DNA from: a virus
Virus record (IMG/VR): IMGVR_UViG_3300006853_000005
Coordinates: 1 to 51,168 of that record
Length of the DNA stretch: 51,168 bases
Reading direction: 5' to 3' (one strand)
The position numbers and the translations under genes were made by a program. Below the pieces are notes generated by a model, which was given only the letters and a program-made list of their open reading frames with translations, had not been told where the DNA came from and did not search any database. Position 1 is the first letter of the stretch. Each line of letters starts with the position of its first letter. This document shows, in pieces, positions 47,383-51,085 of the stretch.

Positions 47383-48702
47383 GTGAGCGGGACAGCCGAC
47401 GAGCCGTCCCGCTCGGCCGCGCTCGCCAACGTCGACCTCGAACGGGCCCTCATCGGCGCCGCGCTCATCGACTCGGCTGCGGCGGGCCTCGTCGCCGCCA
47501 TGCCCCTCGACGCGTTCTGGGGGCCGGCCAACAACCGTGTCGCGTCGGTGATCGCCGAGCTCGACCGGGACGGCCAGGCGCCCGACGCCCACCTCGTCCA
47601 CGACCGGCTGTCGGCGACTGGTCAGCTCGACGCCGTGGGAGGCCTCGAGGGGGTCCTGGCGATCGCGACGGAGGGAGGTGTGCCCGAGTCGGCCGACCGG
47701 TACCGGGCCGAGCTGCTCGGCCTGCACCGGCTGCGGGTCGATCTGTCCCGTATCGAAGCGGCCCGCCAAGCGATCCTTGGCCGCAACCACGACCTCGCCG
47801 TCGCCTGCCTCGCCACCGTGATCGACGAAGCCCCCGACGACGACACGGTCGCCGATGTCGCCAAGCTCGCCAACGACTACCTCGAGCTGCTCACCGCACG
47901 CGAGAGCGGCGACGTAGGCGGACTCGCGACGGGGATGCGTGACCTCGACGAGATCATCGGTGGCGTCCACCCGGGCAACCTGGTGGTGATCGGGGCACGT
48001 ACCGGGGTCGGCAAGACAGCCGTGCTCTGCCAGCTCGCCACCAACGTGGCCCGTAGCGGCAACCGGGTCCTCGTGGTGTCCCTCGAGATGCCGTGGCCCG
48101 AGCTGTTCGACCGGTGGGTCGGCAACCTCGGCTGGATCGACACCCGCCGGCTACGGCGGGGCGAGATGGGCGACGACGGCTGGAACCGGGCCACGACCGG
48201 GCTCACGTCGCTCGCCAAGATGGCGATCCGGGTCGCCAAGCCCACCACGATGACCGTCCCGGCCATCCGGGCCGAGGCCCGCCAGCACAGCGCCGACCTG
48301 GTGCTCGTCGACTACCTGCAGCTCGTCCACGCCGTCGGCCGGCGCAACACCAACCGGGAGAACGACGTCGGCGAGGTGTCCCGCACGCTCAAGGGCATGG
48401 CCCTCGCCCTCGGCGTCCCCGTCGTCGCCGCGGCGCAACTGAACCGCAACCTCGAAGGCCGGTTCACCAAGAAGCCCGAGCTGTCGGACCTGCGGGACTC
48501 GGGGCAGATCGAACAGGACGCCGACGTCGTGATCATGCCCTACCGGGCCGCCCAGCACGACGACGAAGCCGACCCCTCCGAGATCGAGCTTCTCGTGCGC
48601 AAGAACCGCCACGGCGAGACCGGCGTGGCCTACATGACCTTCCTCGGCCCCACCCAGCACGTGGTCGACCGAGCCACCGAACGTCACCTGAGGAGTGTCT
48701 GA
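47383..48702 (+). CDS. dnaB: Replicative DNA helicase (DnaB-like)
   Basis: A 439-residue helicase. The N-terminal domain (about 15-120) has NVDLERALIGAALIDSAAAG. The RecA core holds Walker A GARTGVGKTA (204-213), SLEMPWPELFDR for the second motif, LVLVDYLQLVH as Walker B and the QLNRN / QIEQDADVV motifs near the end. Normal length. The stop shares a base with the ATG of the initiator gene, so helicase and its partner are made together. It would act at the candidate origin just downstream. Confidence 0.92.
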   Translation: MSGTADEPSRSAALANVDLERALIGAALIDSAAAGLVAAMPLDAFWGPANNRVASVIAELDRDGQAPDAHLVHDRLSATGQLDAVGGLEGVLAIATEGGVPESADRYRAELLGLHRLRVDLSRIEAARQAILGRNHDLAVACLATVIDEAPDDDTVADVAKLANDYLELLTARESGDVGGLATGMRDLDEIIGGVHPGNLVVIGARTGVGKTAVLCQLATNVARSGNRVLVVSLEMPWPELFDRWVGNLGWIDTRRLRRGEMGDDGWNRATTGLTSLAKMAIRVAKPTTMTVPAIRAEARQHSADLVLVDYLQLVHAVGRRNTNRENDVGEVSRTLKGMALALGVPVVAAAQLNRNLEGRFTKKPELSDLRDSGQIEQDADVVIMPYRAAQHDDEADPSEIELLVRKNRHGETGVAYMTFLGPTQHVVDRATERHLRSV

Positions 48703-49679
48703 TGCAACCAGTCGACCGCTTCACGTGGGAACGAGGCCTCAGGAACGACCCCGGTGCCAGAGGGGTCCGCCTGGCCGTGCTGTTGACCCTCGGGACCTAC
48801 ATGGACGCCGACGGCACCAACGCCCGACCGACCCAGAAGGCCCTCGCCGAGGCGTGCGGGCTCAGGGAACGGGCCGTGCGCAGCCACCTGACGTGGGCCG
48901 TCGACAACGGGTGGCTCGAGGTCGTCCAGCGCGGCCACCACATCGTCAACACGGGCCGTTCGGTGGCGTCCCTGTACCGGGCCAGCACTCCACAACCGGC
49001 ACCCACCGACCGGTTGTACGACCCTCCTACTACCGGCACCCAGGAGCCGGTTGTGGAGGACACAACCGGCGTCACCGTGCCGGTTGTGAACCCCCCCGAG
49101 GCCCCACAACCGGCACGAAACGTCCCCACAACCGGCACCGGGGTGCCGCCTACCACGAACCAAAAACCCCCTACCTCAAGTACCGCGGTAACTCACGAGG
49201 GCCCCGAAGCGGTCGAAGAGGCGGCGAAGGGCAGGATCACCCCCAGCCGCATCCTCACCGAGATGGCCCGCCGGCGGCTCGTCGTCCTCAGACAACAACG
49301 GCTACCGACCGCCCCGCCCGAAGGATGCGACCCGCGGCGGGTCGAAGGGTTCCTCCGGGTCGAGGTCGACGCGCTCCGGGCCCAGCACGGGTTCGCCCTC
49401 GACGCGCTCATCGCCCGCAACCACCCCGAGCACCCCGCCAAACCACGCCACGCGGATCCCGACTGGTACGTCTGGCGGCTCGACCCCGACCTCGCCCGCC
49501 GCGACTGGTCCCTACCCACCGCAGCCGAGACCCGAGCCCGCCACGACGCCGAACGAGCCGCCTGGGCGCTCGACACCCCCGAGAAGGTCGCAGCCAACCG
49601 CGCCGGCCGCGAGGCCGCCATGGCCCTGCGCGACGAGCTTCGTGAATCCCGCAGACAACGAGAGCAGGTCCCAGCATGA
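48702..49679 (+). CDS. Winged-helix replication initiator or helicase loader
   Basis: A 325-residue protein from ATG 48702 (AGGAG upstream). Residues 1-95 form a winged helix: FTWERGLRNDPGARGVRLAV, RPTQKALAEACGLRERAVRS, then HLTWAVDNGWLEVV. Residues 97-165 are a Pro/Thr-rich linker whose coding DNA carries inverted iteron pairs. Residues 180-325 are helical (PSRILTEMARRRLVVLRQQR; ALRAQHGFALDALIARN), possibly the helicase-contacting domain. The arrangement recalls lambda O, where the origin is inside the initiator gene. Coupled to DnaB. Confidence 0.72.
   Translation: MQPVDRFTWERGLRNDPGARGVRLAVLLTLGTYMDADGTNARPTQKALAEACGLRERAVRSHLTWAVDNGWLEVVQRGHHIVNTGRSVASLYRASTPQPAPTDRLYDPPTTGTQEPVVEDTTGVTVPVVNPPEAPQPARNVPTTGTGVPPTTNQKPPTSSTAVTHEGPEAVEEAAKGRITPSRILTEMARRRLVVLRQQRLPTAPPEGCDPRRVEGFLRVEVDALRAQHGFALDALIARNHPEHPAKPRHADPDWYVWRLDPDLARRDWSLPTAAETRARHDAERAAWALDTPEKVAANRAGREAAMALRDELRESRRQREQVPA
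48992..49190. promoter_or_regulatory. Candidate replication origin with inverted iteron pairs
   Basis: Sites resembling ACAACCGGCAC lie at 48992, 49029, 49062, 49106 and 49128; reverse copies (GTGCCGGTTGT type) start at 49007, 49044 and 49077. Three pairs share an exact spacing of 15 bases start to start (four between arms); the last site, 49128, has a degenerate partner GTGCCG at 49143. The element is read in more than one frame (PQPAP, TTGT, EPVV, VPVV), so selection is on DNA. An A-rich stretch follows (49160-49166), and a TACCGCGGTA palindrome is at 49181-49190. Confidence 0.65.
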
Positions 49680-50722: not shown

Positions 50723-51085
50723 GTGCCCCGCCGCCCCTGCCTCGGTCCCCCCGGCATCCCCTGCCCCACCCAGTCCCTGGCCCAACCAGGCAAACCACGC
50801 TGCACCACCTGTGAAGCCGCACACCAGCGGCAACGCAACACCACACGCCCCCAGTACCGAGGCGACTGGCCGGCCCAGGCACGGGCAGCCATCGCCACAC
50901 ACCGAGCCCAACACGGCGACGTGTGCCCAGGCTGGAACCGCCAGCCACATCGGATAGACCCTGCCGACTGGACCTGCGACCACGACATCGGTCCGCTGTG
51001 CCGGCCGTGCAACGGCAGCAAGGGTGGCAGCGAGGATCGACGGCGAGCCGAGACTCGCCGGACCGGACTCGACCAACAAGCCTGA
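50723..51085 (+). CDS. HNH endonuclease next to the packaging genes
   Basis: A 120-residue protein: CTTC (27-30), GDVCPGWNRQPHRID, then the nuclease core TCDHDIGPLCRPCNGSKGG with D86-H87, C93, C96 and N97. Small HNH proteins adjacent to terminase are a known part of cohesive-end packaging in several phages, and this gene reaches the terminase gene across the contig ends. GTG start after GGGCGGGCT, with no strong ribosome binding site. Distinct from the HNH gene at 28047, which lacks the histidine. Confidence 0.82.
   Translation: MPRRPCLGPPGIPCPTQSLAQPGKPRCTTCEAAHQRQRNTTRPQYRGDWPAQARAAIATHRAQHGDVCPGWNRQPHRIDPADWTCDHDIGPLCRPCNGSKGGSEDRRRAETRRTGLDQQA

Follow-up and report, generated by a model that had tools for sequence, protein, structure and literature searches.

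The O-like gene 18 and the DnaB-like gene 12 of phage P22 are thought to act as an initiator and phage-own DnaB loading pair. The P22 origin is annotated inside the initiator gene, the phage's own DnaB-type helicase adjoins it, and the repeats are followed by an A-rich tract and then a palindrome; all of this recurs, with a predicted origin, at the locus described here, but in P22 the helicase gene comes after the initiator gene instead of before it, the repeats measure only about 17 bp and have a different core, and the host belongs to another phylum. In phage lambda, ori-lambda likewise lies in the middle of the O gene as tandem dyad iterons with an A-rich tract and a palindrome beside them, and O dimers bind each iteron, which has the form of an imperfect inverted repeat (PMC7466680). 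The lambda iterons measure 18-19 bp at 20-24 bp steps, whereas the present ones measure 26 bp at 33-37 bp steps and are joined by extra half-sites; lambda loads the host DnaB via P, whereas the DnaB found here is phage-encoded. Since lambda iterons are themselves dyads, the remark of the initial annotation that the layout was not one it recognised was overstated; tandem dyads, an A-rich tract and a palindrome form the lambda/P22 plan with wider dyads. A further parallel is offered by the RepA_N plasmid pSK41 and its relative pPR9, in which, as proposed here, a winged-helix N-terminus binds repeats central in its own gene and the origin encodes the linker; these are plasmid replicons, however, with a C-terminus that contacts host DnaG and with no phage DnaB. 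The initiator of pPR9 has a phage-like HTH_36 N-terminus (PF13730) and supports autonomous replication (PMC5703833). Little mapping has been done of protein-driven origins in phages of mycobacteria and other actinobacteria. For extrachromosomal prophages of mycobacteria, a study from 2020 put the RepA origins inside repA or adjacent to it and identified no repeated motifs in the region examined (PMC7157519).

The whole stretch of DNA analysed here, 51,168 nucleotides long and referred to as the window, is an IMG/VR virus record with genes for large terminase, portal, tape measure, serine integrase, methylase and a DnaB-like helicase; its source is a tailed phage whose hosts are probably actinobacteria. 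The last open reading frame (50723-51085) reads like a small HNH endonuclease (CDHDIGPLCRPCNGSKGG), and since it stands at one end and terminase at the opposite one, the genome may be nearly complete. Elsewhere, the segment 43884-43988 contains 75-86 bp with 87-95% identity to the otherwise unrelated Gordonia phages Kamaru, Easley and BetterKatz; its in-frame reading is REFYLGELTGHDLACWCPLDQPCHADVLLDLAN, which we take to be a DUF4326-like domain.

The helicase and initiator genes overlap in TGATG at 48700-48704, so that the initiator starts within the DnaB stop codon. The initiator matches phrog_391, "replication initiation O-like" (E 3.4e-10), along with further PHROGs for initiation, and PF13730 HTH_36 scores over the cut-off as the only Pfam domain; RepA_N (PF06970) is absent, and the protein would therefore work like the initiator of a RepA_N replicon without being filed there. 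The PDB holds no sequence relative of it. AlphaFold2 predicts a confident winged helix over the first ~95 residues (pLDDT mostly 77-93 for residues 1-80), with generic fold matches that include, among many, the plasmid-type "initiator" domain 4pql/4pt7. Residues from about 100 to 180, for which the array and the following tract are the coding DNA, are modelled as disordered, in agreement with the flexible linker that the initial annotation had proposed for this winged-helix protein. The window combines what marks a lambda-type origin (an O-like initiator family, tandem dyad iterons in the gene, and an adjoining A/T-rich tract) with the P22-type arrangement of a phage DnaB-type helicase gene adjoining the O-like gene.

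Table 1. Window coordinates of the candidate origin, its accessory elements and the two associated genes.
Feature	Position	Strand	Evidence or sequence
DnaB-like replicative helicase gene	47383..48702	+	PF03796 E 1.2e-70, PF00772 E 7.6e-10, phrog_19 E 5.6e-84
O-like replication initiator gene, 325 aa	48702..49679	+	phrog_26991 E 1.4e-11, phrog_391, PF13730 HTH_36
Winged-helix DNA-binding domain, residues 1-95 (predicted)	48702..48986	+	AlphaFold2 and winged-helix structural matches
Dyad 1	48992..49017	.	ACAACCGGCAC-CCAC-CGACCGGTTGT; codon phase 2
Dyad 2	49029..49054	.	ACTACCGGCAC-CCAG-GAGCCGGTTGT; codon phase 0
Dyad 3	49062..49087	.	ACAACCGGCGT-CACC-GTGCCGGTTGT; codon phase 0
Solitary half-site ACAACCGGCAC	49106..49116	+	codon phase 2; counterpart of the relatives' out-of-phase penultimate half-site
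Last unit	49128..49153	+	half-site ACAACCGGCAC and decayed second arm GTGCCGCCTAC; codon phase 0
A-rich tract, proposed unwinding element	49149..49180	+	A and AT content
Palindrome TACCGCGGTA at 49181-49190, overlapping GTAACTCAC	49181..49196	.	counterpart by position of GTTACGTAACTC in relatives

The array spans 48992-49153 and consists of three 26-bp dyads and two further half-sites (Table 1). All eight sites of the initial annotation lie where it had put them, on the plus strand at 48992, 49029, 49062, 49106 and 49128 and on the minus strand at 49007, 49044 and 49077; those at 48992 and 49106 are in codon phase 2, and all others in phase 0. The three pairs share the 11-4-11 geometry, as it had stated. 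The 49007 arm (CGACCGGTTGT) departs from the 11-mer at its three inner bases, so that the invariant part of the dyads is ACCGG-N10-CCGGT, with the core extended to ACAACCGG-N10-CCGGTTGT in dyads 1 and 3. Behind the 49128 site stands a partial second arm (GTGCCG at 49143), and the last unit is therefore regarded as a decayed dyad; relatives have a decayed last unit as well (TGTAVPP, TGTGVPP). Within the 51-kb window, ACCGG-N10-CCGGT occurs only at the three dyads. When the protein was re-encoded 3000 times from the phage's own codon usage, three dyads never appeared (maximum 2), nor did seven half-sites with up to two mismatches. A de novo 9-mer count is unexceptional alone, with 8 copies in the array and 49 of 208 control segments reaching 8; what is unusual about the array is its geometry and clustering rather than its raw number of 9-mers.

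Relatives were sought by DNA and by protein. Scans with the initiator or the helicase as a single protein brought up no relative among viral or genome contigs, and the initiator had no match among named phages; the relatives described here are distant, with about 30-45% identity at the N-terminus. Searching IMG/VR for two tandem ACCGG-N10-CCGGT dyads, on DNA only, yielded 23 stretches, several of them inside O-like initiator genes (including L009, L011, L019, L020, L013, L014 and L023), and some of these relatives encode the repeat as quite different peptides (NTGRILPV, DTGSNLPV); such dyad scans also match many places without an initiator nearby. The stretch L005:2209-2360 has five near-perfect ACCGG-N10-CCGGT dyads at 33-bp steps and no recognisable initiator gene around them. 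A protein-only scan with the conserved N-terminus as a profile alignment yielded 27 loci. The array occupies the same place in 26 of them; in the remaining one, L047, it lies 3' of the gene. In the common plan, two to five units at 33-bp steps are followed by a half-site in another phase and by a last unit 22-23 bp further on, and the window shows this plan too, at spacings of 37, 33, 44 and 22.

Across 25 distinct genes, the half-sites occupy all three codon phases (99, 30 and 8), and codon choice shifts inside the arrays: glycine is encoded by GGA in 73% of cases there vs. 17% elsewhere in the same genes, and valine by GTT in 42% vs. 3%. The initiator genes of L010, L047, L063, L075, L079 and L080 stop short of the array, leaving it immediately 3' of the coding sequence; therefore it is the DNA that is conserved. 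The initial annotation had argued the same from the window, and had taken relatives that keep the linker and lose the dyads as the sign against its reading; the relatives went the other way, keeping arrays in other phases or outside the gene. Dyads of other sequence occur in L063/L079/L080 and in L076/L077. The two half-site types of the relatives, ACCGGAAC and ACCGGACA, pair with two versions of the recognition helix, which suggests co-evolution.

The named members are mycobacterial phage or prophage genes annotated as helix-turn-helix proteins. Four mycobacterial initiators (GD21-1 gp54, P3MA gp54, IdentityCrisis gp55 and prophi62-1 gp14) share with the window a related winged helix, the same array plan, a decayed last unit, an A-rich tract and a palindrome; they differ in having DnaA boxes among the dyads and no DnaB gene, and in half-sites that read ACCGGAAC or ACCGGACA where the window has ACAACCGGCAC. 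A literature search of incomplete coverage found no report of the array or of the origin of the mycobacterial members, and among other named phages the neighbours of DnaB-like genes revealed no convincing array. Two genes after the initiator, the mycobacterial relatives carry a phrog_908 gene of unknown function and a constant 876 bp (L028:5166-6041, L029:4073-4948, L030:4115-4990, L031:4109-4984), which could act as a partner in replication where there is no DnaB.

The A-rich stretch and the palindrome that the initial annotation had seen behind the array are borne out by base composition and by the relatives. The A content of 49150-49199 falls in the top percentile among the window's 50-mers, and the AT content of the tract in the top 0.5% of its 40-mers; at 47.5% AT vs. 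a mean of 30%, the tract is nevertheless weaker than that of lambda. Many relatives have the palindrome GTTACGTAAC in place of TACCGCGGTA. The hexamer GTAACT occurs once in the 51-kb window, at +60 counted from where the last half-site begins; its counterpart in relatives mostly falls between +52 and +58, and at +58 L079 carries the very same 9-mer, GTAACTCAC. In L076-L080 and L063, a second conserved element, ACG(T/C)AACTCAC, followed by a CCGCGCGCGACC-like sequence, lies 50-130 bp 3' of the last half-site; it recurs behind arrays of differing half-site sequence.

Strict DnaA boxes (TTRTNCACA) are concentrated at the relatives' arrays: of the 71 in 209 kb of their loci, 70 lie within initiator/array regions, where almost all share one strand and the usual place is between dyads. 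Their number is above the synonymous null for six of the seven genes tested (P about 0.005 or less), with P 0.07 for the seventh. Most relatives without DnaB have such boxes in their arrays, woven among the dyads in L028-L031, L034-L037, L039-L060, L010, L063, L076, L077 and L109; neither array boxes nor DnaB_C were found in L038, L075, L078, L079, L013, L007/L014 and L023. The window's array has no DnaA box at 48900-49300, even with one mismatch allowed, and among the about 55 records searched first, the window alone has DnaB_C. Scans with the window's own dyad type were added to try whether DnaB carriers lack boxes; of the further initiators, L096 and L121 are on records with DnaB and have no DnaA box in their loci, L109 has no DnaB and a single box in its array, and the fragment L123 has neither. 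Boxes occur in 0 of 3 DnaB carriers vs. 13 of 21 lineages without DnaB (Fisher p 0.08), a comparison of hand-counted lineages, partly fragments, in which close relatives are not independent. These counts suggest that DnaA boxes and an own DnaB may exclude each other. It is possible rather than probable that this is one modular origin with two helicase routes, in which members that have no DnaB gene would recruit the host DnaB through DnaA boxes set between the dyads, and the window, L096 and L121, which lack the boxes, would use their own DnaB independently of DnaA.

Taken together, the array is very probably this phage's lytic origin, at which the winged-helix N-terminus would bind as dimers and the phage DnaB would be loaded in a P22-like manner. 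The origin function put forward in the initial annotation fits every comparison: the gene families fit an O-like initiator with a helicase; the dyads are unique in the window and beyond the synonymous null; 26 of the 27 protein-found relatives keep the array plan; half-sites fall in all three phases, with rare codons inside the arrays; where the initiator gene is shorter, the array stands 3' of it; behind the array come an A-rich tract and a palindrome, as in lambda and P22; DnaA boxes, the sites of a replication initiator, lie within relatives' arrays; a winged helix and a disordered linker are predicted; and autonomous replication is supported by a plasmid initiator with a phage-type PF13730 N-terminus (PMC5703833). 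Counted against it were the lack of a GC-skew turn at the array (the contig stops 2 kb further on), the unexceptional per-gene 5-mer counts in relatives, the unexceptional 9-mer count and the distance of the relatives. The array and its position, its conservation at the DNA level, the accessory elements and the gene pair can be read directly from the DNA. As to binding, unwinding and helicase loading, we infer that dimers of the N-terminal winged helix would bind the 26-bp dyads, that further initiator subunits would fill the half-sites, which are spaced by about two turns, and that both would together form an O-some-like complex; the adjacent A-rich tract would open, and the complex would load the phage DnaB encoded immediately upstream. 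Independence from host DnaA is likewise predicted, because DnaA boxes are missing from the window's origin.

Selection could alternatively have acted on a linker motif in the protein, Thr-Gly-x-x-x-Pro-Val (e.g., as a helicase contact), with the dyads as a by-product of codons. Many relatives indeed have their units in one phase, as TTGTAVPV-like repeats at frame-keeping 33-bp steps, and their per-gene ACCGG 5-mer counts are not above the synonymous null, because Thr-Gly often encodes ACCGG anyway; yet conserved half-sites in other phases encode the unrelated PQPAP, HHRNGHD and HDRTNA, the rare codons fit a DNA motif, the array stands outside the initiator gene in several relatives, and the window's dyads exceed the synonymous null. 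Selection on the protein motif is therefore very improbable.

Somewhat less improbable, although still unlikely, is an operator or a partition (centromere-like) site through which the winged-helix protein would regulate its operon or segregate a plasmid-like prophage. The array lies mid-operon and not at a promoter, in a gene that belongs by its matches with initiation families and has DnaB as its neighbour; DnaA boxes, the A-rich tract and the palindrome accompany such arrays, and the window has a serine integrase. These points outweigh the observations that repressors too bind dyads through winged-helix proteins and that one relative (L063) is on a record filed as a plasmid; autoregulation could coexist with origin function. 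The probability that the dyads are RNA hairpins (for attenuation or translational control) or cruciforms is minute. Folding of the strand as RNA is strong (z -5.6), as for any dyad set, but the cognate protein has a DNA-binding fold; the hairpin reading was rejected because relatives conserve, at fixed places, solitary half-sites that have no partner for a local hairpin. Rfam gave no match.

Read as an origin, the array has counterparts in many uncharacterised relatives, including mycobacterial prophages, which carry the same kind of predicted origin; the interleaving of DnaA boxes with dyads in most DnaB-less relatives is new. In dozens of phages, annotation labels the initiator only as a helix-turn-helix or hypothetical protein; for these the comparison provides a predicted origin with defined binding sites. 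It also supplies small replicon cassettes for testing, and natural pairs of recognition helix and half-site that are useful for working out DNA specificity. For the biology of these phages, it leads to the testable hypothesis that they may switch between host DnaA and a helicase of their own.
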